A program made the position numbers and the translations under genes. Shown piece by piece: positions 10,438-33,947 of a DNA stretch of 36,218 bases. Below the pieces are notes generated by a model. That model saw only the letters and a list, made by a program, of their open reading frames with translations, had not been told where the DNA came from and did no database searches. The DNA is from Rhodospirillales bacterium (GTDB lineage: Bacteria; Pseudomonadota; Alphaproteobacteria; Rhodospirillales; UBA2165). Where the stretch lies: assembly GCA_012960465.1 (NCBI GenBank), contig DUBF01000041.1, positions 1 through 36,218 on the forward strand. Direction: 5' to 3'. Within the stretch, counting starts at the first letter, position 1, and every line of letters begins with the position of its first letter.

Positions 10438-10518
10438 CTAATTGTGACAGAAAAGGTTGCTCCTTTGCCTCATATTAGTAATACGGCTAATCAAAATAGC
10501 TTCCAAATCGAATGACAT
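10438..10518 (-). CDS. Putative 26-residue peptide or leader ORF
   Basis: The minus-strand ATG at 10516-10518 is preceded 7 bases away by GGAGG inside a 15-base exact Shine-Dalgarno (10520-10534). The peptide starts MSFDLEAILI and ends N-L-F-C-H-N before TAG. One base after the stop a second ATG opens a 9-residue frame (M-W-S-K-G-Q-G-N-R). A strong terminator follows at 10392-10364, and a perfect TATAAT lies upstream at 10553-10558. I do not recognise the peptide. It could be an independent small protein, or a leader peptide attenuating the genes downstream at 10336-9699. Confidence 0.45.
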   Translation of the reverse strand: MSFDLEAILISRITNMRQRSNLFCHN

Positions 10519-10519
10519 C

Positions 10520-10534
10520 GGATCACCTCCTTTC
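10520..10534 (-). promoter_or_regulatory. Exceptionally long Shine-Dalgarno for the small peptide ORF
   Basis: Reverse strand GAAAGGAGGTGATCC is the exact complement of the last 15 bases usual at bacterial 16S rRNA 3' ends. It sits directly before the ATG at 10518, giving near-maximal ribosome pairing. A -10-like TATAAT at 10553-10558 (minus) would start a transcript about 10 bases before it. Confidence 0.55.
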
Positions 10535-10694
10535 GTTGATACGTTCACGAATATTATATTTTCAAATTAGTAAAAATGGAAGTAGCTTTAATTATAAATC
10601 TAACTTAATTATGATAATCAAGTATTTTCTTTTGCTACCACACTTGAAAGAAAACTTATTAGAATTATACAAAGAAGAATTCTTGGAGGATGAT

Positions 10695-11666
10695 ATGAGT
10701 AAGACAAAGGCAGCTGAGGCCCTTCTAGTTGCGAGTGATGATGAGCGAGATAAAAAAATTTATCAAGCCGGCTTTATTCCAGGTTGGATTGGTGAGGGTG
10801 GATTAAAGCCAGAGCCAATACATGAGTTTAACGCCTGTAGTTGGAATTGGGATAAAGGCAAAGAGCTACTGGAAGCCGCTGCAAGAAGTATTGATCCGCG
10901 TGTGGCTGAACGGCGTAATATTCGCATGGCAAATACTGCTAATGAAAAACGTACTAGCCTGAATACAATTCATACGTCGTACCAAATGGTTGCACCGGGT
11001 GAATTTGCGCGAGCTCACCGACATACCATTAATGCGGGCAGACTTATCCTAGAAAGTAGTGGAGCGTTTACGACACTAGACGGTGAAAAAGTATATATGG
11101 AGCCTAATGATATTATACTTACGCCTAATTGGGTGTGGCATGGACTGGGTAATGATAATGAAGTATCAGGAGCTTTTTGGATAGATTTCTTGGATGATCC
11201 ATTAGTTTCTAGCTTGAAAACAATTTTTTTTGAAGTTCGAGATGAAGATTATGAGACTATGGAAACAAATCATAATTCTCCTTACCATATTAAATGGCGC
11301 GATTTGGATAAAAAGCTAGGGACTTTAGCTCCCGGTGTTGATGAAAGTTATGGTTGCCGCATAAAATTGGACACACCTTCTATCCCATCAATGGATCTAT
11401 TTATGGAGCGACTTGATAATAAGATGAAGACAAGGGCAATTAAGTCAACGGCAAATCATATATTTGTCTGCGTTGAAGGTTCGGGTAGTACACAAGTTGA
11501 AGATGTTTCTTTTTCATGGGAGAGAGGCGACGTTGTAGCAGTCCCGTCATGGAAATCATTTTTTCATCATGCCTCTTCGAAGTCTTCATTGCTTGAGATT
11601 ACAGACCAACCTTTGATGGAAATGTTAGGATGGTACCGGAGTTCTAAAATCATTTCTGAAGGTTAA
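10695..11666 (+). CDS. Gentisate 1,2-dioxygenase-like bicupin protein
   Basis: A cytosolic bicupin of 323 residues. The first cupin carries the iron ligands H108-x-H110 (F-A-R-A-H-R-H-T) and H149 (W-V-W-H-G-L-G-N), as in gentisate and salicylate 1,2-dioxygenases, which open the ring of hydroxylated benzoates with Fe(II). The second cupin (residues 220-320) has F-F-H-H-A-S but is incomplete as a metal site, as usual for this family. The ATG at 10695 is chosen because GGAGG precedes it; an open frame extends back to 10512 but covers the antisense peptide locus and looks non-coding. A single-cupin protein and an SDR follow within about 100 bases each. The substrate is unknown. Confidence 0.8.
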   Translation: MSKTKAAEALLVASDDERDKKIYQAGFIPGWIGEGGLKPEPIHEFNACSWNWDKGKELLEAAARSIDPRVAERRNIRMANTANEKRTSLNTIHTSYQMVAPGEFARAHRHTINAGRLILESSGAFTTLDGEKVYMEPNDIILTPNWVWHGLGNDNEVSGAFWIDFLDDPLVSSLKTIFFEVRDEDYETMETNHNSPYHIKWRDLDKKLGTLAPGVDESYGCRIKLDTPSIPSMDLFMERLDNKMKTRAIKSTANHIFVCVEGSGSTQVEDVSFSWERGDVVAVPSWKSFFHHASSKSSLLEITDQPLMEMLGWYRSSKIISEG

Positions 11667-11756
11667 AAAAATTCTGGGATTACAAGTGATATTTTATACT
11701 TTATGTACAAGTATTTTTAAGGTTATGATAAATAAAACTATGGGGAGGTAAATATT

Positions 11757-12341
11757 ATGGCAGCTGAAATTTATACACCGACAAAGGAGGAAATTGAGGC
11801 AAGAGTAAGCCGTTTTTCCGAATTACAACCAATGTCTACAGCTAATGACTTGGCTTGGGTAGGCCAAGAAGCTATGGATGTATTCTATGCCAGAAAATTG
11901 ATGCCGGTTATTTTGGATGACACAAAAAATCCGTTTGGAAATCAAGCCCCGATTATAGGTGCCGCCGGTTCAACCATGTTTGTTTCTATCATGCCGCCTG
12001 GTCAAGGTCCCTGCCTTCATTCCCATAATGGTACTTTTGAAACCTTTATGGTTCTTGATGGGACGATTGAATATCACATTGGAGAGCCTGTTGCCCATGT
12101 TGTAACCCTTAATAAGTGGGATGTTTTGTCTTGCCCCCCTAATGTATATCGAGGATTTCACAATGTGGGTAAAACGGATGCAGTCCAACTTACAGTAATT
12201 ACTGGTGCGGGCGAGGGTCGCGACGACGTCTCAATGCCCGATTCGATTGCAAAGAAAGTAGAAAAAGATTTTGGCAAGAAAGTTGTTGATGCATTTCGCT
12301 CCGTTTTTAGTTTTGATCCGCCAAGATCAGATTTAAGCTAA
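11757..12341 (+). CDS. Single-domain cupin protein
   Basis: A 194-residue protein with one conserved beta-barrel cupin. Motif 1 is C-L-H88-S-H90-N-G-T-F-E95-T-F-M-V-L-D-G; motif 2 contains P-P-N-V-Y-R-G-F-H135-N-V-G. The four metal ligands (His, His, Glu, His) are all present, so a metal-dependent dioxygenase, isomerase or binding role is plausible. A strong GGGGAGG site precedes the ATG. A weak AT-rich hairpin (11696-11714, then TTTT) lies between it and the bicupin gene and may attenuate read-through. The small-cupin, bicupin and SDR order suggests a shared pathway. Confidence 0.8.
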   Translation: MAAEIYTPTKEEIEARVSRFSELQPMSTANDLAWVGQEAMDVFYARKLMPVILDDTKNPFGNQAPIIGAAGSTMFVSIMPPGQGPCLHSHNGTFETFMVLDGTIEYHIGEPVAHVVTLNKWDVLSCPPNVYRGFHNVGKTDAVQLTVITGAGEGRDDVSMPDSIAKKVEKDFGKKVVDAFRSVFSFDPPRSDLS

Positions 12342-12450
12342 AATCCTAACTAAATCTTTTCTGTCTTATCTTGGGTTTGGTAGAAAAATTTATAGTCAAA
12401 ACTAGCCTTTGGTTTATTTGAAAAAGTAAAATTCATGATGGAGGTTTAAT

Positions 12451-13560
12451 TTGCGCACCCTGTTAATTGGAGGGACGGGTCCAACAGGTCCTTTTATTGT
12501 CAAAGGTCTTAAGGCCAGGGGCCATGAAGTTACAATTCTTAATCGTGGGTCTCACCATACCGACGAAATACCAGATACCGTTGAACAAATAATTGGTGAT
12601 CCCCACTTTGAAGAGACATTAAGGGAGGCTTTGGCTGGCAGAAACTTTGATCTAATAATTGCGAGTTATGGACGACTTCGAATGATCGCGGAGATAGCGG
12701 GTGATTACACAGATCGCCTGATAAGTATTGGTGGGGCGCCCGGTTATAGAGGTATGCGATATCCTGATGCGTTATTTCCAACGGGGTTGCGGGTGTCAAT
12801 TCCAGAGGATTCACCCCAGGTCGTTTCAGAAGATGAGTTTCGATTTGGATATTTAATAAAGGTTAGTGAAGATGCCGTTATGGAAGGCCATAAAACTGGT
12901 CGTTATCAGGCAACCCATTTAAGATATCCGCTTATTTATGGACCTCGCCAGCCCATACCTTGTGAATGGTGGGTTGTTAGAAGACTATTGGATAAGCGAA
13001 GCTCAATAATTCTACCTGACTCTGGACTTACCATCCTCACACGTGGTTATGCTGAAAATATGGCAGAAGCGATTTTACTTACAGTGGATCAGAGTGAACT
13101 GGCAACGGGAAAAATATATAATTGCGGTGACGATCATCAATTAACAATGGCACAATGGGTGCAGGTGATAGCTAAGGCAATGAACTCTGAGATAGAGGTA
13201 ATTTCTATACCTGTTGAATATGCAACACCTTCCAGGGATATGATGATAGGTAGCACTCATTCAAATCATTTGCAGTACGACACTTATGCAATACGTAATG
13301 ATCTTGGATATGTGGATAAAATACCGGTATTAGAGGCGTTCGACCGCACAGTTGAATGGTACTTGGCTAACCCGCCGGCGCTTAATAAAGCGACTGAAAG
13401 CGATTTGACCCAGCATTACAAGGTCGAAGACAAGTTGATTAAAATTAATGCGGAAATCATCCAGAAATATGAGAGCCTCTCTTTAACAGATGTGGAATTT
13501 AAACATCCTTATGCTCACCCTAAAAAACCTGGGGAAACAAAGGACCATTTAGGGCGTTAA
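12451..13560 (+). CDS. NAD-dependent epimerase/dehydratase family protein
   Basis: A 369-residue extended SDR starting at TTG with a GGAGG site 7 bases upstream. The N-terminal L-L-I-G-G-T-G-P-T-G-P-F is the nucleotide-binding loop, and the beta 2 end (T-I-L-N-R-G) indicates NADP. G-Y-L-I-K-V-S-E-D carries the YxxxK pair, and L-R-Y-P-L-I-Y-G-P-R-Q-P is the conserved substrate-domain entry. It resembles the isoflavone-reductase/CSP41-like nucleotide-sugar epimerase group, but the context (cupin dioxygenases, GMC oxidase) points to reduction or isomerisation of a small organic acid. It converges with the GMC gene, whose stop is 18 bases away. Confidence 0.83.
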   Translation: MRTLLIGGTGPTGPFIVKGLKARGHEVTILNRGSHHTDEIPDTVEQIIGDPHFEETLREALAGRNFDLIIASYGRLRMIAEIAGDYTDRLISIGGAPGYRGMRYPDALFPTGLRVSIPEDSPQVVSEDEFRFGYLIKVSEDAVMEGHKTGRYQATHLRYPLIYGPRQPIPCEWWVVRRLLDKRSSIILPDSGLTILTRGYAENMAEAILLTVDQSELATGKIYNCGDDHQLTMAQWVQVIAKAMNSEIEVISIPVEYATPSRDMMIGSTHSNHLQYDTYAIRNDLGYVDKIPVLEAFDRTVEWYLANPPALNKATESDLTQHYKVEDKLIKINAEIIQKYESLSLTDVEFKHPYAHPKKPGETKDHLGR

Positions 13561-13578
13561 AATAACAAATTAGTGCTA

Positions 13579-15165
13579 TTAGGCGTAATCTTGTTTAATC
13601 ATATCGGCCGCTTTTTCGCCAATCATAATTGCTGGAGCATTTGTATTTCCACCTATTATTCTCGGTGCAATTGAGAGGTCGACTATTCTTAAGCCCTTTA
13701 GACCGTGAACCCTCAATCGATTATTTACGACGGCATGATTGCCATTACCCATCTTGCAGGTACCAACTGGGTGAAAGATAGTACCGGCAGAATTAAGAAT
13801 GTATTCTTTCAGTTCTTTATCGGTCTGGACAGCTTGGCCAGGATTGGTTTCAGTGGGATGATATTGGTTAAAGACATCACCGTGAATGATGCGGCGGCAT
13901 TCTTTCAAGCCCCAAAGCAATTTGTCCAAATCTGGTTCCTGTGAATAAAATTGCGGATCTATGGATGGTGGATCTTCCGGATCTGCTGATTTTAGTGTAA
14001 CGGTGCCGCGACTTTTAGGTCGCAAAAGCACTGCTACAGCCGAGTATCCATGACCATAGTCAATTATTTTTGGCGGTGGCACCCTTTGCCCAGGCATAAA
14101 CACAAACTGGATATCCGGTCGGTCTAGCGCAGGATCACTTTTTACAAAACCGCCAGATTCTATGAGTTGTGCGGAAAACCATCCTTTCTGGGTAAAAATA
14201 TATTTGATCGCTTCCATAGCAAAATAAGGTAATTTAGGCCATGAAAATCCCCAGGGGGTTCGTGATACAGTTTTCATCGTAGCCCAAACCGCCGCGTGGT
14301 CTTGGAGGTTTTTGCCAACTCCCAGTAACGTGTGCGTCATTTTAATATCATGCGGCGTTATTTCGGCGGGGTCACCAATGCCAGATAGCATTAATATTTT
14401 TGGTGACACAAGTGCTCCGGCTGAGAGGATAACCTCGCAATTGGCCGTTAATTTTCTGCCGTCGATGAGTTCGACGCCTGTTGCACGGTCATTCTCTAAC
14501 AGAACTCGTTTTACCGCAGCATCGGTGAATATTTTAAGATTTGATCGTTTCATGGCTGGATGTAGGTAGGCTTTTGACGCTGACCAACGTCTACCATTCT
14601 TTTGTGTTGCCTGGTGGAGGCCTACACCTTCTTGGATATCTCCATTAAAATCGGGGTTATGTTTGTATTGCAATGCCTCAGCGGCAGTAACAAAGTCTTG
14701 TTCTAATGGACTTACAATATTGGGGAAAGTTACATTCAAAGGTCCACCTTGAGCGTGGTGTTCATCAACAAACTGTTCGTTATTTTCAGCCTTTAGGAAA
14801 TATGGTTTGACGTCGCTCCAAGACCAACCGTCATTTCCAAGTTCCGCCCACTCATCATAGTCAAGGCGGTTACCCCTAATATATACCATTCCATTAATGG
14901 AACTTGAACCACCGAGAGTTCTGCCACGCGGGGTAAAAAGTTCTCGGTCATTCATCTGTTTCTGCGGTGCTGTAGCAAATCGCCAATTTAATTTCTCGTG
15001 TGAGGCCAGCCGCATGACACCTGTAGGTATGTGAATAAATGGACTTTTGTCAGGGGGACCTGCCTCAAGTAAACATACTGAAATATCTGGATTTTCGCTT
15101 AACCGAGAGGCGACAACAGATCCCGAGGACCCTGCTCCAATAACAATGAAATCATAGCTTTCCAT
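13579..15165 (-). CDS. GMC family oxidoreductase (choline dehydrogenase-like)
   Basis: An FAD-dependent glucose-methanol-choline oxidoreductase of 528 residues, full length. It has the FAD loop GAGSSG (residues 10-15) and V-C-L-L-E-A-G for the ribose. The two GMC signatures are G-R-T-L-G-G-S-S-S-I-N-G-M-V-Y-I-R-G-N and S-A-G-A-L-V-S-P-K-I-L-M-L-S-G-I-G. The C-terminal active-site pair is H465 in F-H-P-V-G-T-C-K-M-G and N509 in G-G-N-T-N-A-P, as in choline oxidase. It oxidises an alcohol to an aldehyde or acid; the substrate is not determined. It is monocistronic on the minus strand and divergent from the VOC dioxygenase across about 170 bases. Confidence 0.92.
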   Translation of the reverse strand: MESYDFIVIGAGSSGSVVASRLSENPDISVCLLEAGPPDKSPFIHIPTGVMRLASHEKLNWRFATAPQKQMNDRELFTPRGRTLGGSSSINGMVYIRGNRLDYDEWAELGNDGWSWSDVKPYFLKAENNEQFVDEHHAQGGPLNVTFPNIVSPLEQDFVTAAEALQYKHNPDFNGDIQEGVGLHQATQKNGRRWSASKAYLHPAMKRSNLKIFTDAAVKRVLLENDRATGVELIDGRKLTANCEVILSAGALVSPKILMLSGIGDPAEITPHDIKMTHTLLGVGKNLQDHAAVWATMKTVSRTPWGFSWPKLPYFAMEAIKYIFTQKGWFSAQLIESGGFVKSDPALDRPDIQFVFMPGQRVPPPKIIDYGHGYSAVAVLLRPKSRGTVTLKSADPEDPPSIDPQFYSQEPDLDKLLWGLKECRRIIHGDVFNQYHPTETNPGQAVQTDKELKEYILNSAGTIFHPVGTCKMGNGNHAVVNNRLRVHGLKGLRIVDLSIAPRIIGGNTNAPAIMIGEKAADMIKQDYA

Positions 15166-15337
15166 TATAAAGTCTTTCTAATTTATCACCTTGAGTTAAT
15201 TCTAATTTTTCGGGAAATTAACCCACAGCTAGTTTAATAATCTTTCTAACCGCGTTTTTAAATGTTATTTAATTATACTATCAGGGTATTTTAGGACAGG
15301 CAAAAATACATAGAAAGTATTATGTTGGAGGAAGCAA

Positions 15338-16297
15338 ATGATTAAAGTTACAGATATAGCTTACGGGCGAATAGGGGCACCTGATCTCGATAGAATGGAA
15401 GCATTTCTGCTAGATTTTGGCATGGTTCGAGCCGATCGTACCAAAAATGCACTTTATATGCGTGGCACTGATGGCGACCACCATCATTTACATGTCACAG
15501 AGCTCGGTGATCCTGTGCATATTGGAATGGCTTGGTGGGCTAAGACTGAAGAAGATTTAGAAAAAATCTCTAAGGCGCCTGGCGCCAGTGATGTTCATGA
15601 AATGGATGAGCCAGGAGGAGGCAAGAGGGTGACACTTCCGGATCCAGATGGACGTATCATTGAAGTTATTCACGGTATGGAAGTTGTAGAGGACCTGAAG
15701 GTTCGTGACGTCATCATTAATACAGGAAAAAATAGATTAGCTCGTACCGAACTTCAGCGAGTTTCTGCAAATCCAGGACAACCTTCACATGTAAAGAGAA
15801 GTGCGCACGTTGTTGTAAAAACAAAAGATCTAAAAAAGTTCAATGAATGGTACCAATCGACACTTGGATTGGCTTGTTCGGATCATATCAAAGCTCCTGA
15901 TGATCCAAGTAAAAATATGATGACCTTCAATCATATTGATGCTGGCGCTGAATATGTTGATCACCATGTGCTGTTGGGGATTCAGTCGGAAAACGCAGAA
16001 TTTAATCATTTGTCATTTGAGGTTGCCGATTTTGATGACGTTAACATTGGGCATAACTATATGCAGTCAAAAGGATATAAACTTGCCTGGGGTGTCGGAA
16101 GGCATGTGCTTGGCAGTCAAATATTTGATTATTGGCGCGATCCATGGGGTCGAATCCACGAGCATTGGACCGATGGTGACGTTGTCAATAACAGTCATGA
16201 TGGGGGGAGATGGGATGCTCACGTAGGTTTAAATAACCAGTGGGGCCCCGAATTTCCTGAGGACTTTGTCGACGATCCACATATTCACGTCCTCTAA
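15338..16297 (+). CDS. Extradiol-dioxygenase-type VOC protein
   Basis: A 319-residue type I extradiol dioxygenase fold of two paired beta-alpha-beta-beta-beta modules. The C-terminal module has the 2-His-1-Glu iron facial triad in expected order: H157 (S-A-H-V-V-V), H224 (F-N-H-L-S-F-E-V) and E275 (I-H-E-H-W-T-D-G). Length and layout match 2,3-dihydroxybiphenyl 1,2-dioxygenases (BphC) and catechol 2,3-dioxygenases, so ring cleavage of a catechol-type substrate is expected. A strong TTGGAGGA site precedes the ATG. The carbonic anhydrase gene starts 16 bases after the stop; an operon is likely. Confidence 0.87.
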   Translation: MIKVTDIAYGRIGAPDLDRMEAFLLDFGMVRADRTKNALYMRGTDGDHHHLHVTELGDPVHIGMAWWAKTEEDLEKISKAPGASDVHEMDEPGGGKRVTLPDPDGRIIEVIHGMEVVEDLKVRDVIINTGKNRLARTELQRVSANPGQPSHVKRSAHVVVKTKDLKKFNEWYQSTLGLACSDHIKAPDDPSKNMMTFNHIDAGAEYVDHHVLLGIQSENAEFNHLSFEVADFDDVNIGHNYMQSKGYKLAWGVGRHVLGSQIFDYWRDPWGRIHEHWTDGDVVNNSHDGGRWDAHVGLNNQWGPEFPEDFVDDPHIHVL

Positions 16298-22454: not shown

Positions 22455-23414
22455 TCAATGGTTTGCGATAAACTGGGTCCCTGCCACCCCCGCTAGCCCA
22501 GCAGCTATGTTCTCCGGATTTGTAATTACACCTCTCTTTCCACCATTTTTAAGGAACTGCATAATTGCTTCAACTTTGGGGCCCATACTACCAGCATTAA
22601 GCTGATTAGCGTCTAACAATGATTGAGCTTTCTCAATGGACAGTTGTTCTAACCAAACCTGGTTGGGTTTACCAAAATTAATTGCAACGTTCGGTACGTC
22701 TGTGGAGAGCAACAAGACATCTGCATCCAATTCAGAGGCCAATAAACTTGAAGAAAAATCCTTATCTATGACAACTTCAACACCTTCGAGTTGGTCATTT
22801 GTCCCCGAGCTGACTGGAATTCCGCCGCCACCGCACGCGATGACGGTATGATTTTTTTTGATTAAATTTGATATTTGGGCCAATTCAACTATTTTCAATG
22901 GTTTGGGAGACGCAACAACACGCCGCCAGCCATGGTCGGGGTCTTTTTTTATTGACCAGCCAAATTTCTTAGCACGCTTTTTTGCTTTAGCTTCATCATA
23001 AAAAGGACCGATTGGTTTGGAGGGATTGTCAAAAGCCGTGTCAGTAGTATCAACTATTACCCTTGTAATTACCGCTACCGCACTTTTGTCCATGCCCCTG
23101 GCGCAATATTCGTTATCAAAAGCACGGCTAAACATATAGCCAACCGCGCCCTGAATATCAGCGACAGCATAATCGATCGGAATTGTGATAACTTCAGGAG
23201 CCGCTATTTCGGATCGTTCAAGCACAAAACCCACCTGAGGCCCATTGCCATGGGTAAGAACCACATTCCAACCTTGTTGATCTGCATCAACAATATTGCT
23301 GACAGTATTTTCAACAGCTTCATATTGATGAGCAATACTTTGTCTATCCTCGGCAATAATTAGAGAATTTCCGCCAACTCCGATAACAACGCTTCCCTGA
23401 CTGTCATAATTCAT
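22455..23414 (-). CDS. arcC: Carbamate kinase
   Basis: A 319-residue amino-acid-kinase-fold enzyme with full family motifs: V-I-G-V-G-G-N-S-L near residue 11, T-H-G-N-G-P-Q-V-G near 54, A-C-G-G-G-G-I-P-V near 192, D-K-D-F-S-S-S-L-L-A and L-S-T-D-V-P-N. It makes ATP from carbamoyl phosphate and ADP, releasing ammonia and CO2. Its place as third gene behind FdrA and DUF1116 proteins (10 bases after the DUF1116 stop) matches AllK-type carbamate kinases of the anaerobic allantoin pathway rather than arginine deiminase operons. It probably harvests carbamoyl phosphate made by that transferase. Confidence 0.92.
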   Translation of the reverse strand: MNYDSQGSVVIGVGGNSLIIAEDRQSIAHQYEAVENTVSNIVDADQQGWNVVLTHGNGPQVGFVLERSEIAAPEVITIPIDYAVADIQGAVGYMFSRAFDNEYCARGMDKSAVAVITRVIVDTTDTAFDNPSKPIGPFYDEAKAKKRAKKFGWSIKKDPDHGWRRVVASPKPLKIVELAQISNLIKKNHTVIACGGGGIPVSSGTNDQLEGVEVVIDKDFSSSLLASELDADVLLLSTDVPNVAINFGKPNQVWLEQLSIEKAQSLLDANQLNAGSMGPKVEAIMQFLKNGGKRGVITNPENIAAGLAGVAGTQFIANH

Positions 23415-23424
23415 GATTTCAGAC

Positions 23425-24837
23425 CTAAGATGATGCCATTACAGATTTGTGCAATGGACTAATAGTTTGGATAAATACATCAAGCGGAGCTGAGGTAATG
23501 CCAGCGCCGATCTGGCCTACACCTGCTTTTTTATGGGCAATACCCGTATTGACGATTGGTAAGATGCCGGTATCAATGACTTTTCGGATATCAATACCCG
23601 CTGCTGTTGGTGCAAAATCTAAGGCTGGCAGGGTGAATTGGCTATTCGCTCCAATTGATATATTGCGCATATTACGGCTTTGAACCAAAGCATCCATAGG
23701 CGAGCCCCCGACAAATTGTGTTATTGCAGGAGATGCCGCCATAGCAAATCCACCGAGACCAGCAGTCTCCGTAATAGCACTATCGCCGAGATCTGCAGCG
23801 GCATCTTCTATACTATAGCCAGGAAAATAAAGTCCATCGACAACTGGAGCTGGCGTCGTGAACCACTGATTTGGTAACCCACTGATGCGTATTCCAAATT
23901 CAATACCGTTCCGGGCCATAGCGGTAACCATCGAACTGTTTGCTATGCCATGCGCAGCATCTAGCATTGCTTTACAGCTAGGCATAGAGATGTTGAGGAA
24001 AAAGTGGTCATTGCCAGCGATAAAGGAAATCATTTCCCTGATATCGTCTTGTGTAGCGTCAGAATCTAATGCCCCGACGACTAATTTCTTGATTAAAAGA
24101 GAAGAGCCAGCAGCATTGCGATTGTGTGCCTCATCGCCCATATGTAGGGCTTGACCAATAAGTGGCTTTAGTTCAATTGGACCGGTTTTCTGAATTGTAG
24201 CTTGCAACGTAGGTGCTAGGTTCTTTTCCATCCACTTGAGTCGTTTAATAACATCTGGGCTATTGGCACCAAAACGGAGCACTTTGCCCAAGCCCTCGTT
24301 CAGTGTAGTGAAAGCTTGATTACCATGCGTCGTATTGTTGATGATCCAGACAGGCATGGACGGGCTGATAATTCCAGCCATTGGGCCAACCGAATTATGA
24401 TGGTGGCAGGAATCAAATCGAATTTCTCCACTAGAGGCTAATTTTTCTGCTTCATTAAGGTCGCCAGCCCATCCTTCATAAATTGTAGCACCTAAGATTG
24501 CCCCTTTCATTGGACCACACATATCTTTCCAGTTAACTGGAACACCAGCATGTAAAATTATTTTGCCGGACATATCTGGAAGTTCATCTCGCGCAATACC
24601 AATACCCTCCAATACAGGATTCGCAGCAAGATATCTGCCAAAGGCCTGATGATTGGCGGTTTCAATTTTTTCATTTAATACAAGATCGGCAAGTTTAGAT
24701 CCAATATCCTTATTGCCACCTGCGGGTGGTTGCCAGTCAACATGAATAACAGAGCCCCCAGCAGTTTGAATATTATCAGCGAATGAGCGAAGCCCAACAT
24801 TGGTTATGTTAAGATTTTCATTTTGCAATTTAGGCAT
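23425..24837 (-). CDS. DUF1116 protein (YlbE/AllG-like carbamoyltransferase subunit)
   Basis: A 470-residue DUF1116-family protein, the normal length. Characteristic segments are W-Q-P-P-A-G-G near residue 36, H-A-G-V-P-V-N-W near 97, C-H-H-H-N-S-V-G-P-M-A-G-I near 145, and G-E/D-E-A-H-N-R-N-A-A near 235. E. coli YlbE belongs to this family and, with FdrA and YlbF, makes up oxamate carbamoyltransferase, which phosphorolyses oxalurate to oxamate and carbamoyl phosphate. Its ATG overlaps the FdrA stop by 8 bases, so it is translationally coupled. The substrate here may not be oxalurate; no allantoin genes are in view. Confidence 0.87.
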   Translation of the reverse strand: MPKLQNENLNITNVGLRSFADNIQTAGGSVIHVDWQPPAGGNKDIGSKLADLVLNEKIETANHQAFGRYLAANPVLEGIGIARDELPDMSGKIILHAGVPVNWKDMCGPMKGAILGATIYEGWAGDLNEAEKLASSGEIRFDSCHHHNSVGPMAGIISPSMPVWIINNTTHGNQAFTTLNEGLGKVLRFGANSPDVIKRLKWMEKNLAPTLQATIQKTGPIELKPLIGQALHMGDEAHNRNAAGSSLLIKKLVVGALDSDATQDDIREMISFIAGNDHFFLNISMPSCKAMLDAAHGIANSSMVTAMARNGIEFGIRISGLPNQWFTTPAPVVDGLYFPGYSIEDAAADLGDSAITETAGLGGFAMAASPAITQFVGGSPMDALVQSRNMRNISIGANSQFTLPALDFAPTAAGIDIRKVIDTGILPIVNTGIAHKKAGVGQIGAGITSAPLDVFIQTISPLHKSVMASS

Positions 24838-26416
24838 TATTTGAACTTCCCGCGATTGACTTTTTGCCGGTGGAATTTGTTAAAATTACTGATGTTGCCC
24901 TACGAGTAGCCTCAGCATTGCTCTCGGCTACAATAACACTTGCAGATTTGAGAATTTTGATCTGCGTGGTCAAGTTTTGTGGATCCATATCTGTGCCACA
25001 CACAAATCCTATAAAATAGATCTGCCGCTGCTCTTTCGTGGATATTTTCCGGGCCTCTTTAATAGTATTTACCATCTCTGCTGCAGGGTTTGCGTGTGAG
25101 CCACAACCAATAACTACATCAAATAAGATTACAGCGGTTTCCGGGTCAGATGCTTCCTGTAGGATACGTTCATGGCGTGTTCGATGATCAATCATGGGAT
25201 GGGCGCGGCCTTGGGTAAATTCATCATCACCTAGATCAATGATAGTATGCTCCTGGCTCGACCAAGAATCTTTTAGGTGATAGGCCTTATCTATTGGCGT
25301 ACTAGACCAAACAGGACCAAGCAAATCTCTTAAAATTGATTGGGTCTCATAACAAAATGTTCCACCACTATAAATACCACGAATATATTTTTGGCTCTCC
25401 TTTTGATCAAATAACTGGGTTGTTATATCATCCCCAAACACCATTCTATTTGGAAGATTGCCACCATTTAATTTTGAATATGTAAACTCCGCAGCTGCAT
25501 CCAAGGTAGTGGCAAATTGAATTATGTTATCATTATCGTTATTCTCGCTACCCAGGAAACAAACAATCACAGGTTTGCCGCCCGCCCGTGCCGATGTTAT
25601 TATTTTTTCAGCAACTTTTTTGCTCGGCGGTTTGGATATAAGTACGATTACTTCAGTTTGTTCATCCTCAATCAGAATTTCAACGCCCTGAGCCATAGAA
25701 ATACCACCTATTTCATCGCTTAAATCACGGCCGCCTGTACCAATCGCCTGAGAAATGCCAACACCCCATTGCGTCAATAATGATGAAATTTGTTGTAGTC
25801 CAGTTCCAGAGGCAGAAACTATCCCAACTGATCCTCTGGCAACAATATTGGCAAAGCCCAATGGTAAGCCATTAATGATTGCTGTGCCGCAGTCCGGCCC
25901 CATCATCAACAAATTTTTAGCCGAACTAATTTTTTTTAATTCGAGTTCTGCCTGTATAGATACATTGTCACTGAAAAGCATGACATGAAGGCCTAAATTA
26001 AGGGCCTTTTTTGCTTCGGCAGCGGCATATTCACCCGGGCATGATATCAATGCTAAGTTTAAACCAGGGTCCCGAGAAACTGCCATTTCAATACTTTTTA
26101 CTTCAGGTTCACAATTCTCCGATCTATCTGCAATAGAACCTAAATTGTCCATTTGAGCTTCTGCTTGAGAGAATGCCGCGTCCGCGGCCTTTTCATTTTC
26201 TGCAGAAACCGCAATCAATAAATTGTTTGGCTGCGGTTCTATTGTGTCGTCGATTAAACCAACAGTTCGAGCGAGATTTAAATTAGCCGCTGTTGCCATG
26301 ACTGCGGTCGCTTGGAAAATTCCTGGCAATGCTTCTAAATCGGCAGCAACTCTCATGAGTGCGATAGAATCACTGTAGTGATTCTTGCGGATTAAATATT
26401 TCTCTAGCATTGGCAC
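24830..26416 (-). CDS. fdrA: FdrA-like acyl-CoA-synthetase-fold carbamoyltransferase subunit
   Basis: A 528-residue FdrA-family protein related to succinyl-CoA synthetase alpha subunits. M-G-P-D-C-G-T-A-I-I-N-G and G-I-V-S-A-S-G-T-G-L-Q-Q are the conserved nucleotide/acyl-phosphate loops, followed by I-G-T-G-G-R-D-L-S-D-E-I-G-G. The C-terminal half has G-C-G-S-H-A-N-P-A. In E. coli FdrA (AllF) acts with YlbE and YlbF in the oxamate carbamoyltransferase system. Start is GTG 26416 or the ATG two codons on (26410); neither has a clear Shine-Dalgarno. It is the first gene of the unit FdrA, DUF1116, carbamate kinase. A 35-bp palindrome lies about 70-105 bases upstream. Confidence 0.88.
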   Translation of the reverse strand: MPMLEKYLIRKNHYSDSIALMRVAADLEALPGIFQATAVMATAANLNLARTVGLIDDTIEPQPNNLLIAVSAENEKAADAAFSQAEAQMDNLGSIADRSENCEPEVKSIEMAVSRDPGLNLALISCPGEYAAAEAKKALNLGLHVMLFSDNVSIQAELELKKISSAKNLLMMGPDCGTAIINGLPLGFANIVARGSVGIVSASGTGLQQISSLLTQWGVGISQAIGTGGRDLSDEIGGISMAQGVEILIEDEQTEVIVLISKPPSKKVAEKIITSARAGGKPVIVCFLGSENNDNDNIIQFATTLDAAAEFTYSKLNGGNLPNRMVFGDDITTQLFDQKESQKYIRGIYSGGTFCYETQSILRDLLGPVWSSTPIDKAYHLKDSWSSQEHTIIDLGDDEFTQGRAHPMIDHRTRHERILQEASDPETAVILFDVVIGCGSHANPAAEMVNTIKEARKISTKEQRQIYFIGFVCGTDMDPQNLTTQIKILKSASVIVAESNAEATRRATSVILTNSTGKKSIAGSSNNA

Positions 26417-26488
26417 AATTTTTCCAAAATAAATAAGTTTCTTTCATGTATGAGGTTCTAATATAGATAGCAAGATTGAAGTATCTAA

Positions 26489-26523
26489 CAGTGACTTATA
26501 ATTATTTAAATAACAAGTTACTG
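26489..26523. promoter_or_regulatory. 35-bp imperfect palindrome, candidate operator
   Basis: CAGTGACTT at the left and AAGTTACTG at the right are near-perfect inverted arms around an AT-rich centre (ATTTAAAT-like); only a few positions fail to pair. It sits in the 338-base gap between the divergent FdrA operon and the DUF2877 gene, an ideal place for a shared regulator site. No regulator gene is in the window. No other feature is seen in the gap. Confidence 0.45.
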
Positions 26524-26754
26524 CACTTTTGCATAAAAATTTGAATATCATATTGATATAATTTTGTATTTAGTTTTACGAAAGGAAAATATCAAAATTA
26601 TAATAGTTCAGTATAGGGTTAAAGCTTGGTGTTTGAGTGTATGAAACAGTTACAATTATCGTTAAGAGAGCTATACAAACCTGTTTAAAACCTTAATTTT
26701 CTATGCGATGTTTGAATAGCAGGAAATCAAAACTTTTAGGTGTGGTGACGACCA

Positions 26755-27726
26755 GTGAAAATTTTTAATGCAGAGACATTTGATATTCGGATAAAGAATA
26801 AGGCGTTTAAGGGGAAAGTCCATAGTGTCTTTGCGAGTGCGTGTAATATCAAAACAAGAGAAGATAAAATTATTACGTTACTTGTAAATTCTAAACCCGA
26901 TCAACCTAACGGTATTAGAATTTTAACTCCAAAAGAGTTTGTTTTTTCAGATTGGATTAAGCCCGGTGATAGTGTTTCCTGCCAACAAGAATGTCTTCAA
27001 ATTGAAGAGCCAAATATTCTTGTCGATATGCGACTGGCACATGTATGGCAGAATAGCTTGCCCCGCTATTTAGATGACGTCGATCATGCCCACATCTTAG
27101 GCCAATATAAGGCCGCAACAAAATTATTTTTAATGTTAACAAAACAAAATATAGATAGTTTAAAAAAAAGTAATTCAAAAATAAAGCGTATGGATTTTTT
27201 ACTAATTTTATACTCCAAAGTAGAAAATTTAACCCAATCGGTAAGGATCGATGACAAGTCAAAAATACTTTCAGAGATTTCATCATTCATTGGATTTGGC
27301 CCTGGATTAACACCCTGGGGAGATGATTTTCTGTGTGGTTTTATGGCAGGATTTGATTGTTTATCAAAAGATCTGGATCAAAAAATAAAGCTTCACAAGT
27401 TACGCGATATTTTAATTAGGAATTTTGATGCTACCGGTGATATTAGTAAATCGATGCTAAGTGATGCCGTGTTAGGGCAACATGGTGAATTAATAGTCGA
27501 TACATGCCAGGCCCTATTCGATCCAAAATTTTCACCTAAGCTCACCTCTAGGGTTTGTAAACTAATTGAGGTTGGGGAGACTTCGGGTTCGGCCAGTTGT
27601 CTCGGCATTCTATCCGGTATTGCAGCAGTGACCAAATGTAATGAGCTGTATAAAGTTAATTTTCTACGGATGATGTTGCGTCTTAAAGATAAAGTTTATG
27701 TCCCACACCTAGAAACAGTCCCGTAA
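26755..27726 (+). CDS. DUF2877 protein (YlbF/AllH-like)
   Basis: A 323-residue DUF2877-family protein with the signature F-G-P-G-L-T-P-W-G-D-D-F-L-C-G-F near residue 180. E. coli YlbF (AllH) is the third component of oxamate carbamoyltransferase. GTG start; the upstream GGTGTGG is a poor ribosome site. In E. coli this gene lies in the same operon as FdrA/YlbE; here it is divergent and leads a plus-strand group with an isochorismatase-family enzyme and a class III aminotransferase, so its expression is linked through the shared intergenic region. Confidence 0.83.
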   Translation: MKIFNAETFDIRIKNKAFKGKVHSVFASACNIKTREDKIITLLVNSKPDQPNGIRILTPKEFVFSDWIKPGDSVSCQQECLQIEEPNILVDMRLAHVWQNSLPRYLDDVDHAHILGQYKAATKLFLMLTKQNIDSLKKSNSKIKRMDFLLILYSKVENLTQSVRIDDKSKILSEISSFIGFGPGLTPWGDDFLCGFMAGFDCLSKDLDQKIKLHKLRDILIRNFDATGDISKSMLSDAVLGQHGELIVDTCQALFDPKFSPKLTSRVCKLIEVGETSGSASCLGILSGIAAVTKCNELYKVNFLRMMLRLKDKVYVPHLETVP

Positions 27727-28593: not shown

Positions 28594-29955
28594 ATGAACC
28601 ATGAATTCTCAACAAACTACCTTAAAGAAAATAATGCCAAGCATTATTGGCATCCGATGGTGGATCCAAAACTTTCAGAAAAGGATTTGCCGCTGATCAT
28701 CGTCAAAGGTCAGGACCGACATGTTTGGGATATTGATGATAACAAATATTTGGATCTCATGGGAGGATTGTGGTGCGTTAATGTAGGTCATAATCGTCCA
28801 GAAGTTAATAAGGCTATCGCTGACCAACTTGGCAGGATCGCTTATTATAATACGTTTAATGGATTTTCGAATCCTTCTTCAATTGAACTCTCAACCAAGC
28901 TTATTGAGATGCTGGCTCCGGAGGAAATGGTAAAAATTATGTTTGGGTCTGGTGGTTCAGATGCTAACGAAACGGCGCTTAAACTTGCCCGTCAGTATTG
29001 GAAAGTGATGGGTCAGCCAGAAAAGGTCAAAATTTTTTCATTAAAAAATGGATATCACGGTGTGCAGTTTGGCGCCGTCTCCGCGAGTGGTGGCATTGTT
29101 TGGCGCCGAGCGTATGAGCCATTGATGCCTGGGTTCTACCAAGTGGATACGCCTGATCGGTATCGAAATCCTTGGTCTGATGACCCCTATGAACTTTCCG
29201 AAATATGTGCGGGGATTCTCGACCGTGAGATTCAACATCAAGGTCCGGATACCGTGGCAGCATTCATAGCCGAGCCAATTCAAGGTGCAGGCGGGCTAAT
29301 AATTCCCCCGGATGATTATTGGTCCCGCATTCGGAAGGTTTGTGATAAGCATGATGTGCTTCTGATTGCTGATGAAGTAGTGACGGGATTTGGCCGAACC
29401 GGTGAAATGTTCGGTGTGAGGTGTTGGGGAGTCAAACCTGATATTATGAATTTTGCAAAGGGAATAAATTCCGGCTATATACCGTTGGGGGCAACTGCGG
29501 TGAATAATCGGGTGGCCGAAGCGTGGGAAAAAGATCATCCCCTGGCGCCCATTATGCACGGTTATACATATTCCGGTCATCCGGTAGCATGCGCCGCGGC
29601 AATTGCAAATTTACAAATCGTTGAGAACGAGAATTTACCGGCTAACGCCGCAACAGTCGGGATTTATTTCCTTGAAAAATTGATGGAATTGAAGAAGCGT
29701 CATAAATCAATTGGCGATGTTCGCGGCCGCGGTCTTATGCTGGGTATCGAGCTTGTTAAAGATCGTAAAACTAAGGAGCCATTTACACCTATGGATCCAT
29801 ATCTCCAAAGTATCGGACCTCATTGTCGAGAGAAGGGGGTGTTGGTTCGAAACCAAGGGCACCGTATTATAATTTCGCCAGCATTGACGTTCACCAAACA
29901 AGACGTGGATGAGGCGATCGACGCCTTGGACTCTGCGATTGCCGTCGATAAATGA
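28594..29955 (+). CDS. Class III PLP-dependent aminotransferase
   Basis: A 453-residue omega-aminotransferase, full length. PLP-lysine is K289 in M-N-F-A-K-G-I-N-S-G-Y; D260 in I-A-D-E-V-V-T-G-F-G-R-T-G holds the pyridine nitrogen; G-S-G-G-S-D-A-N-E-T near 118-127 binds the phosphate. H-Y-W-H-P-M near the N-terminus and the overall pattern resemble beta-alanine:pyruvate and taurine:pyruvate aminotransferases. It likely moves an amino group from a terminal amine to pyruvate. AAGGAG lies 8 bases before the ATG. The gene follows the amidase by 79 bases and precedes a sulfatase, probably in one operon. Confidence 0.9.
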   Translation: MNHEFSTNYLKENNAKHYWHPMVDPKLSEKDLPLIIVKGQDRHVWDIDDNKYLDLMGGLWCVNVGHNRPEVNKAIADQLGRIAYYNTFNGFSNPSSIELSTKLIEMLAPEEMVKIMFGSGGSDANETALKLARQYWKVMGQPEKVKIFSLKNGYHGVQFGAVSASGGIVWRRAYEPLMPGFYQVDTPDRYRNPWSDDPYELSEICAGILDREIQHQGPDTVAAFIAEPIQGAGGLIIPPDDYWSRIRKVCDKHDVLLIADEVVTGFGRTGEMFGVRCWGVKPDIMNFAKGINSGYIPLGATAVNNRVAEAWEKDHPLAPIMHGYTYSGHPVACAAAIANLQIVENENLPANAATVGIYFLEKLMELKKRHKSIGDVRGRGLMLGIELVKDRKTKEPFTPMDPYLQSIGPHCREKGVLVRNQGHRIIISPALTFTKQDVDEAIDALDSAIAVDK

Positions 29956-29983
29956 TTTAACCGTACTAGGGAGAGATTTAGGT

Positions 29984-31471
29984 ATGTCACGATCACAGCG
30001 TCCCAACGTAATCCTCATTATGACCGATAATCAGCCAAATGATTTGCTTGGTTGTTACGGAAATACGGAAATCCACACACCTCGCTTAGATCGGATGGCT
30101 CGTGAAGGGATTAGGTTTGATAATGCCTATTGTCCTAATTCCATGTGTTCGCCGTGCCGTGCCTCGGTGTGGACCGGCAGAATGCCGTGCCAACATGGTG
30201 TGCATACCTGGATAGATGATAGGCAGCGACCAAATTGGCCAGATAATTGGAACGCCGTTGCAGAGTTCGAAACGCTACCGGAAATACTAAAAAAAAACGG
30301 CTACGCGACAGCTATAATTGGAAAGTATCATTTAGGGGTCCCCACGCCAGGTCATAACGGGATTGATCATTGGGTGACGATGGAGCGGGGGCATACACTC
30401 GATTTCCACGGAAATACCATGAACGTCAACGGAGAGATTTTTAACCATGAGGGACACTCTGTCGATTTTTTTACAGAGAAAGCCGTCGAGTATATCGAAG
30501 GGAGGCACGATCAACCGGATGATCCTTTTCTTCTTTTACTGCCCTATAATGGCCCTTATGGTCACTGGCCATCTATAAAAGGTCCCGCAGGTAATCGGTT
30601 TGCGCATCTCTACGAAGATACCCCTATGAATTTAGTGCCACGGGAAGGGCTTAGTAGAGAGGCAATTGATTGTTACGAGCTTAACAAGAATTATCATCCG
30701 CGGGAGAAGGGGGGACCCGATTTCAGTGCTCTTTTGCAAATCCCTAACGACCTAGCTTCCCTTAGAAATTATTATTCCCAGATGACCCTGATTGATGATG
30801 GTGTTGGTAAAGTTTTAGATACATTGACAAAAAATAATCTTGATGAAGATACTATTGTTATTTTTACCGCCGATCATGGGTTCTCTCTTGGCCACCATGG
30901 TTTCTGGGGGCATGCTCAAGCGACATGGCCTTCAAATATGTTTCGTGTCGCCTACAACATTCCTCTGATTGTCCGGGCCCCTGGCTCAGTTGCCGGTGGT
31001 CTAATAAGCGCTCGGTATGTCAGTAGCATGGATTTGTACGCAACAATTATTGATAGTGTCGGTTTGATGCAAGCTGTTGTTGCGGAAGATATTCCAGCGC
31101 GGAGCTTCGCCAAGCTGTTTGACAATCCCGATAGTAACTGGGACGACGTTGTTTTCTTCGAACAAGAAGAGACCCGGGCCATTCGTACTCCTGACTGGCT
31201 TTATGCGAAACGCTTTGATCAAAGTGAGGAATACCCGTTGGAGAATGAGCTCTACGATTTGTCTAATGATCCTGATGAGCGGACAAATCTCGCTGGAAAT
31301 TCGAAATTTTATGAAATTGAAAATGAGCTAAGTACAAAAATTGACACTTATTTTCAGACCTATGCATCTCCCCAATTCGACCTGTGGCATGGCGGAACTG
31401 TTAAGTCTAATAGTTCCCGACCCTGGTTATGGGAAAATGCCTGGGGAGATACCTGGCATCCAATCGCTTGA
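29984..31471 (+). CDS. Sulfatase (formylglycine-dependent)
   Basis: A 495-residue alkaline-phosphatase-superfamily sulfatase. The formylglycine motif is C55-S-P-C58-R59-A-S (C-x-P-x-R); usually Ser is at the fourth position. Metal/catalytic residues are T-D-N-Q near 14-17, G-K-Y-H-L-G, and T-A-D-H-G-F-S-L-G-H-H. It cleaves a sulfate ester, or possibly a phosphonate or choline-sulfate type ester, after activation by a formylglycine-generating enzyme that is not in view. The ATG at 29984 is preferred: GGGAGAG precedes it, and an earlier frame start (29909) would overlap the aminotransferase. No signal peptide is seen, so a cytosolic location is likely. Confidence 0.88.
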   Translation: MSRSQRPNVILIMTDNQPNDLLGCYGNTEIHTPRLDRMAREGIRFDNAYCPNSMCSPCRASVWTGRMPCQHGVHTWIDDRQRPNWPDNWNAVAEFETLPEILKKNGYATAIIGKYHLGVPTPGHNGIDHWVTMERGHTLDFHGNTMNVNGEIFNHEGHSVDFFTEKAVEYIEGRHDQPDDPFLLLLPYNGPYGHWPSIKGPAGNRFAHLYEDTPMNLVPREGLSREAIDCYELNKNYHPREKGGPDFSALLQIPNDLASLRNYYSQMTLIDDGVGKVLDTLTKNNLDEDTIVIFTADHGFSLGHHGFWGHAQATWPSNMFRVAYNIPLIVRAPGSVAGGLISARYVSSMDLYATIIDSVGLMQAVVAEDIPARSFAKLFDNPDSNWDDVVFFEQEETRAIRTPDWLYAKRFDQSEEYPLENELYDLSNDPDERTNLAGNSKFYEIENELSTKIDTYFQTYASPQFDLWHGGTVKSNSSRPWLWENAWGDTWHPIA

Positions 31472-31731: not shown

Positions 31732-32847
31732 GTGATTATGGCATTGATTGAGTACGGCGGTTGCGACCTGCCGATAAGAGAGGATCTTTTACAGTCACAT
31801 GAACGTTGCTGGAATAGGCTATCTGAAACTGGTTCGTGGCTCGACGGTAGTCAAAGAATAGATGTTGCTGCAGAGGTTCGGAATGCTCGGACATGTTCGT
31901 TTTGTGTTGAGCAAAAAGAAGCAATTTCACCGAATGCTGTAACGGGTTCACATAATAGTCTTGGAAAACTTAAAGATGCTGAGGTTGAGATAATTCATCG
32001 AATTGTTTCAGATCCAGCACGACTGAGTAAAAATTGGTATAAAGACGTGATTTCGATGGGTTTAAAGGAAGAAGAGTATATAGAAATTATAGGGATTATA
32101 GCCATGGTCATGGTTATTGATACGTTTACTTTTGCTTTAGGTCTTACCAACCATAATCTTCCCAAGCCAAAATCGGGAAAACCCTTAAATTATCGATCTC
32201 CAGGTGCCAAAACGAAGGCCGCTTGGGTGCCCATTGTTGAGCCAGAAGATGCCACACCATCTGACGGCGAATTATATCCAAACCCCAAGGTAGGATATAT
32301 ACTCAGGGCGTTATCGGCCGTACCGACAACTAAATTCCATTTCTGGGATTTAATGCATGCTCATTATCTACCTGAGCCAATAATTTATCAATTCGATCGA
32401 GATTATCGAGCCATTTCTCGATCACAAATGGAGGTTGTCGCCAGTAGAGTTTCAGCATTACACCAATGCTTATACTGAACTACCACCCACGCCTATATGC
32501 TCCGTGAGAGCGTGCAATCAAATGATGGTAATTTTCAGTTAAATTCTATAACTGAGGGTGTGGTTGATGACCAGGATATTCCTTATGCTGGTTTACTAGC
32601 TGAATTTGCTGAGACCGTAGTTGCCCGAGACAAGTATAAAATCAAGAATCTCAGCGGGTCTATAATAGACCAAATGGGAGCAGGCGCATTTATTGATGTA
32701 GCCGCAACAGCAGCAGGATTCCACGGTGTTGTCCGTATAGCTGACGCGACTGGTATACCGGTTGTCAATGATATGAGTTTAGGTGTGAGTTCTGAGCTGA
32801 ATGTAGATCACTTTTATGCATCGGGATTAGGGGATCGCGGCACCTAA
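31732..32847 (+). CDS. AhpD-like two-domain selenoprotein (CxxC and CxxU)
   Basis: One frame of 371 codons contains two AhpD/CMD-like halves and a single in-frame UGA at 32476-32478 (codon 249). Half 1 (about 1-140) has the redox motif C55-S-F-C58. Half 2 (about 165-371) reads Q-C246-L-Y-U249-T-T-T-H253-A-Y, where AhpD proteins have C-x-x-C-x-x-x-H, so the UGA replaces the second Cys. A bSECIS-like hairpin follows (32496-32514). Selenocysteine-containing AhpD-like proteins are known from marine metagenomes. Expected role: thiol/selenol peroxidase or disulfide reductase. Start is GTG 31732 or ATG 31738. Gene callers would report 31732-32478 and 32497-32847 as separate genes. Sec insertion genes (selA/B/C/D) are not in the window. 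Confidence 0.85.
32496..32514 (+). promoter_or_regulatory. bSECIS-like hairpin for selenocysteine insertion
   Basis: TATGCTC (32496-32502), loop CGTGA, GAGCGTG (32508-32514) forms seven stacked pairs (two G-T), with an outer CAC/GTG alternative. The loop has G in its second position and begins 24 bases after the UGA, inside the 16-37 base spacing I recall for bacterial SECIS elements. It lies within the coding sequence. Confidence 0.6.
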
Positions 32848-33017: not shown

Positions 33018-33947
33018 TTAGAAGGAGACTTGGTCGCCCCCTTTGAGGGCCAAGCGTTTGCGAGCTTCGGCTGGAGTTGCGACGTCCAAGGACAGGTTCT
33101 CGATAATACGGCGGATTTTGGTGACTTGCTCAGCATTTGATTTTGCCAGCTCACCTTTACCAATATAGAGCGAGTCTTCCAAGCCTACCCGGACATTGCC
33201 GCCAAGAATTGCACCTGTCGTCACGAAGTTCATCTGATGGCGGCCTGCTGCTAAAATTGACCACTCATAATTCTCCTCGCCAAAAAGTTTATTGGCAATC
33301 CGGCGCATATGCGTGAGGTTTTCAATATCCGCACCAATACCGCCTAAGATACCAAATATTGTTTGTACAAAGAACGGAGGCTTCACTAAACCGCGGTCAA
33401 CAAAATGAGCTAGATTGTATAAATGGCCCATGTCATAGCATTCGAATTCAAATCGTACTCCATGGTTTTCGCCAAGCTCTTTCAAGATCCATTCAATATC
33501 TTTAAAGGTGTTACGGAAAATAAAGTCGCGCGTCATCTCAATATATTCAGGCTCCCACTTGTGTTTCCAATTATAGGGTTTATCTAAAATTGGGAAGAGT
33601 CCAAAATTCATTGAGCCCATATTAAGCGATGTCATCTCCGGGTTAGCCCGAAGTGCCCCTTCGCAGCGCTCTTCCAATGTCATGCCAAGACCACCACCGG
33701 TGGTAATATTCACAACGGCATCGGTTGATTGTTTAATTCGCGGTAAAAATTCCATGAAAGCGTCCGCAGAAGGGGTTGGACTGCCGTCCCCATTACGAGC
33801 ATGGAGATGGAGGATCGAGGCGCCTGCTTCAGCCGCAGCAATTGCGCTTTCGGCAACCTCGTTTGGTGTAATCGGTAGATACTCTGACATTGTTGGTGTA
33901 TGGATAGCTCCAGTGACTGCGCAAGTTATGATGACACTTTTAGCCAT
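33018..33947 (-). CDS. Beta-keto acid cleavage enzyme (BKACE, DUF849)
   Basis: A 309-residue TIM-barrel BKACE. H47-L-H49-A-R51 gives two zinc ligands, G-V-R-F-E-F-E169-C-Y-D the conserved acid region, and A-A-G-R-H-Q the third His. These enzymes condense a beta-keto acid with acetyl-CoA to give acetoacetate and a new CoA ester; the founder Kce cleaves 3-keto-5-aminohexanoate in lysine fermentation, but the family acts on many beta-keto acids. GGAGA lies about 10 bases before the ATG. With the SMP-30-like lactonase and LLM monooxygenase on the same strand it likely belongs to a catabolic group; the substrate is open. Confidence 0.9.
   Translation of the reverse strand: MAKSVIITCAVTGAIHTPTMSEYLPITPNEVAESAIAAAEAGASILHLHARNGDGSPTPSADAFMEFLPRIKQSTDAVVNITTGGGLGMTLEERCEGALRANPEMTSLNMGSMNFGLFPILDKPYNWKHKWEPEYIEMTRDFIFRNTFKDIEWILKELGENHGVRFEFECYDMGHLYNLAHFVDRGLVKPPFFVQTIFGILGGIGADIENLTHMRRIANKLFGEENYEWSILAAGRHQMNFVTTGAILGGNVRVGLEDSLYIGKGELAKSNAEQVTKIRRIIENLSLDVATPAEARKRLALKGGDQVSF

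Follow-up and report, generated by a model that had tools for sequence, protein, structure and literature searches.

The selenoproteome of the Sargasso Sea, reported in 2005, includes a 'hypothetical protein 1', represented by four sequences which carry a CXXU motif together with a SECIS element (PMC1088965). The name reappears in the available table of a 2022 review (PMC9312934). In the portion accessible of a 2026 review it is listed as 'AhpD-related protein (hypothetical protein 1, Sargasso Sea metagenome)' and equated with the family NF041238, again with CxxU (PMC13188914); within the literature searched this is the only paper which names NF041238. Other AhpD-like CxxU selenoproteins were counted in the GOS data (PMC2398784, accessible part). 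A tested function of the NF041238 family was not found in the accessible portions of the literature searched.

The site of the AhpD-like protein YP_296737.1 consists of Glu74, Cys86, Tyr88, Cys89 and His93, and in human Sestrin2 the redox site resides in the N half, the helix-turn-helix being replaced in the C half (PMC4674687, sections available). Bacterial fused AhpD proteins resembling Sestrin are presented in the accessible part of a 2024 review, from Corynebacterium ureicelerivorans and Comamonas aquatica (PMC11429811). This review does not treat selenoproteins; in the text searched 'selen' occurs once, in selenomethionine. In a search that left most subscription journals outside, we have found no paper which describes the NF041238 selenoproteins as fused dimers of the Sestrin kind. 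What the present analysis adds is the reading as a Sestrin-like pseudo-dimer, a clade-specific CxxC in the N half and a SECIS signature at the DNA level.

The gene under study lies in a window of 36,218 nucleotides, i.e., the whole stretch of DNA which was analyzed. Its features are collected in Table 1.

Table 1. Positions of the candidate selenoprotein gene and its predicted features within the window.
Feature	Position	Strand	Remark
Predicted selenoprotein gene, 371 codons + TAA, NF041238 family	31732..32847	+	GTG start or ATG 31738
TGA, predicted selenocysteine 249, second position of C-x-x-U-x-x-x-H	32476..32478	+	in-frame
Predicted SECIS hairpin, 7-bp stem, loop CGUGA	32496..32514	+	G at nt 29 from U of UGA
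SECIS core codons CTC CGT GAG	32500..32508	+	near-invariant DNA in Sec members
N half, predicted AhpD fold without relay residues, invariant W36, R42, R50, E118	31780..32136	+	predicted helices 17-135
N-half C-S-F-C, residues 55-58, one clade only	31894..31905	+	
C half, predicted AhpD fold, relay E234, C246, Y248, U249, H253	32323..32751	+	predicted helices 198-340

The frame is open except for a single TGA at codon 249 and ends at a TAA; the true start may be the ATG two codons in. As the original prediction stated, translation with table 11 splits it into ORFs of 248 aa and 116 aa, and the residues claimed around the TGA (Q-C-L-Y-U-T-T-T-H-A-Y-M-L-R-E) as well as the N-terminal C-S-F-C are present in the sequence. 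Residues 246-250, C-L-Y-U-T, constitute a CxxU-T motif with the UGA in frame. One single protein model, NCBIfam NF041238.1 (AhpD_rel_CFYUT), covers residues 15-362 across the TGA with 436.2 bits (cut-off 175; model positions 1-356 of 357). The source genome possesses two further full-length copies, on contigs C92 and C197, each with one TGA and each aligning across it. Because one model spans the window TGA and the paralogues align across their own, as do all 38 above-cut-off copies described below, the interrupted frame is more than chance. Judged by such comparisons, the window gene almost certainly encodes a selenoprotein and is very likely functional. The core of the original prediction is borne out, namely that the selenoprotein has two AhpD-like halves and carries Sec where the AhpD motif has its second Cys.

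The gene belongs to a family already on record, and the layout of a Cys half and a Sec half is not new. The original prediction had considered the fusion of two types unusual and thought that automatic annotation would miss it. The two-half layout is the family's own; a novel fusion is rejected because the known NF041238 model covers both halves. The gene presumably need not be missed either, as the NCBI equivalog model carries the curated name 'alkylhydroperoxidase-related (seleno)protein'. Window protein and family have in common the CxxU followed by Thr and a SECIS behind the UGA, and they differ by ordinary divergence only. The highest identity to the window protein within the tree set is 54% (L057).

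Among 199 genomes, 20, the window's own included, have copies above cut-off, at most four per genome among the window's relatives, and all 38 copies have exactly one TGA. U is at the Sec site in 64 of 66 named loci; these loci partly overlap with those of the 199 genomes and the two counts are not to be summed. The other two are Cys forms, L092 (titled Henriciella) with CFYCTSGH and an intact frame, and L111 (titled Bermanella) with CFYCTTSH and a frame broken upstream. Both align with Cys at codon 249, where the original prediction had proposed to look for such homologues. The first pattern of the named-locus scan carried a Cys at this site and should favor Cys forms; few were found even so. 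A sample of 398 genomes across the phylum (E up to 1e-30) contained the family in the window's own genome only and, therefore, supplied no further Cys forms. That the family is nearly all-Sec and occurs in multiple copies is part of why it matters.

In the window gene the hairpin just behind the TGA, GCUC-CGUGA-GAGC, contains the constrained bases, nt 25-33 counted from the U of UGA. For codon counts 67 Sec members were merged to 61 distinct 54-mers, the two Cys members being left out. The Leu codon is CTC in 61/61 distinct members vs. 24.7% of 1969 other Leu codons, and the Arg codon is CGT in 60/61 vs. 9.2% of 1719 other Arg codons. The third codon specifies either Glu, then always GAG (52/52; 51% elsewhere), or Ala, then GCG (9/9). 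In L092 and L111 the SECIS codons and even the encoded residues are gone. With codons and residues alike gone from these Cys forms, the conservation of L-R-E/A in the Sec members looks like the reflection of an RNA constraint. By energy, the predicted stability of the hairpin is not unusual (z -0.75). When the whole source genome was scanned for the SECIS core at fixed spacing, three places emerged, exactly the three full copies; the control, a backwards search, gave one match. A DNA-level SECIS signature which is lost together with Sec in two Cys members separates real Sec members from look-alikes.

The Sec machinery which the original prediction wished to see in the same genome is present. 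In the source genome (98.8% complete) tRNA-Sec (selC) with 77.5 bits, selA with 610.5, selB with 452.2 and selD with 398.6 bits are all above cut-off. Further, selB is above cut-off in 13/20 carrier genomes vs. 15/179 others (Fisher p 2e-8, computed without regard to relatedness and with the window's own genome counted in). All eight carriers that are at least 90% complete have selB, and the seven carriers in which it is not above cut-off are each <90% complete. In four of these seven tRNA-Sec exceeds its cut-off, and one of them has selA as well; in the remaining three neither tRNA-Sec nor selA nor selB was found. At 12/66 named loci selA, selB or selD are located within the flanks (up to 10 kb).

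Some side observations concern these genes. The selD of the source genome (C109, L126) has an in-frame TGA in G-G-G-U-G-C; its SelD is probably itself a selenoprotein. In L082, L083, L085, L086, and L088 a SelD-matching ORF is positioned 0.2-1.4 kb behind the selenoprotein gene; at four of these loci selB and selA come next beyond this ORF. On the other side L083, L085, and L088, and also L080, display an ORF which, with a name inferred from family counts, is trimethylamine-methyltransferase-like.

The C half carries the AhpD-type relay of Glu, Cys, Cys or Sec, and His at fixed spacing, the same spacing as in YP_296737.1 (PMC4674687, accessible part). In an alignment of 22 members E234, C246, position 249 and H253 are invariant. 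In 78 aligned rows E234, C246 and H253 are invariant and 248 is Y or F; this alignment writes U as C, and column 249 (Sec, or Cys in L092) was counted for U separately. Identical rows are merged in this set of 78; five of its pairs still coincide over a 120-residue core, and since most of these represent one gene with different cuts or starts, distinct genes are slightly fewer. Residue counts and the tree exclude L111 on account of its broken frame; L092 sits on a long branch. Enzymes of the TIGR01926 type (PDB 2prr, 6k40, 2oyo) share with the C half the fold and the Glu/Cys/Tyr/Cys/His pattern. They are single-half Cys proteins, whereas the window protein is a fused pair with a Sec and one degenerate half, and the TIGR01926 model itself yields 35.4 of 81.8 bits with the window protein, below cut-off.

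For the N half the original prediction does not hold. It had been taken as a Cys-type AhpD segment; yet in the columns matching the relay Glu (-12) and His (+7) neither residue is found in any of the 78 rows, and such a segment is rejected. The tree splits the family in two with an SH-aLRT of 99, 55 rows with the window protein and C92 (clade A) vs. 32 rows with C197 (clade B); it was computed by a quick method from 87 rows, 77 of them different, with identical rows merged. Clade A has V, L or I in the Glu column and K, R or A in the His column. Both N-half cysteines are conserved in all rows of clade A but L039 (48/49), and the CxxC is absent from the sister clade (0/29). The helix after the CxxC in the window model (56-63) is missing from the clade B model. 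None of the 78 rows departs from W36, R42, R50, and E118, thus the N half is constrained for something besides its CxxC. With relay columns devoid of Glu and His and with invariant residues elsewhere, we read the N half as a probable partner half, not as a second AhpD site.

AlphaFold2 on the family alignment gave a pLDDT of 90.8 and a pTM of 0.92, with the same helix order occurring twice, at 17-135 and 198-340; the model of the clade B copy C197 reached a pLDDT of 94.3. The window chain is predicted with high confidence to be a fused AhpD pseudo-dimer of two helical halves. The relation of the halves to each other is faint in sequence. BLAST of the N vs. the C half finds no similarity; a profile comparison based on the 78 rows places C55 under C246 in register, weakly so (local probability 35%, E 4e-4; global 2-4%).

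With VIA-align, in which Z differences <1 count as ties, the best solved match of the window model is human Sestrin2 (Z 16.5, rmsd 3.9, 242 residues, both halves). Sestrin2 is again first with the C197 model (Z 17.9, rmsd 3.1, 245 residues). Next for the window model are the single-half AhpD-like structures 6k40, 2oyo, and 2prr (Z 13.7-13.9, residues 161-355); such single-half proteins attain Z 13-14 at best, most of them aligned from about residue 161. With plain Foldseek no PDB structure reached an E of 0.001 (6k40 came nearest with 1.2e-3; Sestrin2, 6.1e-3). Sestrin was absent from a Pfam scan of the window protein at E up to 1, in which CMD only was listed, and from the 17 sequences found by a PDB profile search at E up to 10. 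Sequence identity of the window and C197 proteins to Sestrin2 is 8-12%.

Like Sestrin2, the window protein, in its predicted models, would be a fused AhpD pseudo-dimer with one live and one modified half. The Sestrin arrangement, a catalytic Cys in the N-terminal half and a degenerate C half, is not the one encountered here; the relay is in the C half. In the Sestrin sections available the redox half is N-terminal and has a single Cys, in the window protein it is C-terminal and has Cys plus Sec, so that Sestrin2 appears as the mirror case (PMC4674687). The fused proteins of C. ureicelerivorans and Comamonas aquatica, in the accessible part of the review, have their Cys pair in the C half, which is also where the redox pair is located here, and they have Cys in that half only (PMC11429811). 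A Sestrin-like fused-dimer fold with one live half provides a tangible starting point for understanding the role of such fusions.

How might this protein operate? On comparative evidence, a ribosome with SelB and Sec-tRNA would read the TGA as Sec due to the hairpin just behind it. The chain would fold as two AhpD-like halves, the C half alone keeping the relay E234-C246-(Y248)-U249-H253. With activation by the H253/E234 relay, the selenolate of Sec249 would attack an organic hydroperoxide or a comparable oxidized substrate and turn into a selenenic acid, which Cys246 would resolve to a selenenylsulfide; an external thiol donor would then reduce the latter. The N half, its relay lost, would serve as a permanent dimer partner and perhaps contribute W36, R42, R50 and E118 to the substrate pocket. 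We consider it probable, with appreciable room for doubt, that the window protein functions as a Sec-dependent reductase of hydroperoxides with a single active site (E234, C246, U249, H253) and this division of labor. The peroxide as substrate we infer from AhpD and Sestrin2.

A related possibility is a thiol-disulfide oxidoreductase or adaptor, like AhpD for AhpC, in which the CxxU would shuttle electrons to another peroxidase. The CxxU motif and the AhpD fold suit both roles, and one AhpD-type site is kept, no more. However, the 25 commonest of the 112 Pfam families matched in 123 adjacent ORFs include no peroxiredoxin family, and a Sec residue is usually the one which attacks the substrate; we regard the adaptor as rather unlikely. 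Reductive removal of a halogen or another leaving group by a selenoenzyme, along the lines of the AhpD-fold debrominase Bmp8, must also be weighed. Bmp8 (6ohi/6ohj) is among the closest folds with a Z of 13.2, several carriers are marine bins by title, and deiodinases use selenium. Yet AhpD-like proteins from Deinococcus score equally (Z 13.8-13.9, a tie), and the families listed for 25 scanned window ORFs (of 43 ORFs of at least 100 aa) include no dehalogenation gene. We regard a dehalogenase as distinctly improbable. That the TGA is merely a nonsense change in a pseudogene, or a sequencing error, agrees with standard gene calling, which stops at codon 248. Against it stand the TGA at the same codon in every above-cut-off copy of the 199 genomes and in nearly all named loci, the frame kept after the TGA, the constrained SECIS codons and the presence of the Sec machinery. 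On these grounds a pseudogene is rejected; its probability is close to nil.

Returning to the hydroperoxide reductase, one may speculate about its reductant. The N-half CxxC of clade A could act as an internal dithiol and reduce the bond between Sec and Cys in the C half, making a self-recycling selenoperoxidase of one chain; clade B would have lost the CxxC, opened the N-half helix-turn-helix to a loop and come to depend on an outside reductant. We hold this for a long shot. If true, bacteria would possess an equivalent of the Sestrin layout which uses selenium and in which the two halves have exchanged their roles. The split into two clades in which the N-half CxxC was either kept or lost is a natural experiment.

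On the same strand, genes for a class-III aminotransferase (28594-29955) and for a sulfatase (29909-31471) lie upstream of the window gene; a beta-keto acid cleavage enzyme (33018-33947) is encoded downstream of it on the opposite strand. Neither these three genes nor the catabolic cluster which the original prediction had placed beside the gene emerged as constant neighbors of family loci. Around the 66 loci we found no constant partner, the top Pfam family (GST domain) being matched by 6/123 ORFs; no gene partner, therefore, points to a substrate. The scan used 123 of the 125 nearest ORFs of at least 150 aa on either side, two very long ones being left out. The ORFs were chosen by length, some in the wrong frame, and the scan yields family counts, not which ORF matched.

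A sulfatase is located directly upstream on the same strand both at the window gene and at the C197 copy (L124:3306-4940), and sulfatases are also near L099, L107, and L116. A conserved pair is not claimed because the sulfatases of window and C197 align over 114 residues only, with 42% identity. Elsewhere in the window, genes for carbamate kinase, AllG, FdrA and AllH at 22455-27726, split over two strands, form a cluster of the oxamate carbamoyltransferase type, which we take to be the type found in allantoin breakdown. The stretch 10512-16297 harbors gentisate-1,2-dioxygenase-like, extradiol-dioxygenase-like and choline-dehydrogenase-like genes; with the models listed, none of them reaches a curated cut-off.

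As to mobility, no match came up by tblastn among 72,556 plasmid records, and the clade B alignment, when viral contigs were scanned with it, produced 354 pattern stretches and no relative. As both searches were without relatives, a mobile origin of the window gene is rejected. In the protein tree the bins L070 (titled Klebsiella pneumoniae) and L073 (Bordetella parapertussis) fall among betaproteobacterial bins; the Klebsiella title of L070 looks like that of a mislabelled environmental bin. In the source genome a contig-edge fragment (C39:6171-6383) represents the C-terminal part of a probable fourth family copy. Finally, the same genome contains on C164 (L127:4183-4839) a single-half AhpD relative which scores below cut-off with TIGR01926 (70.5 of 81.8 bits) and with NF053654, 'YciW-related (seleno)protein' (67.1 of 310 bits). 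It has an in-frame TGA in C-N-Y-U-F-A-H and, judged by this motif, is possibly a further selenoprotein.
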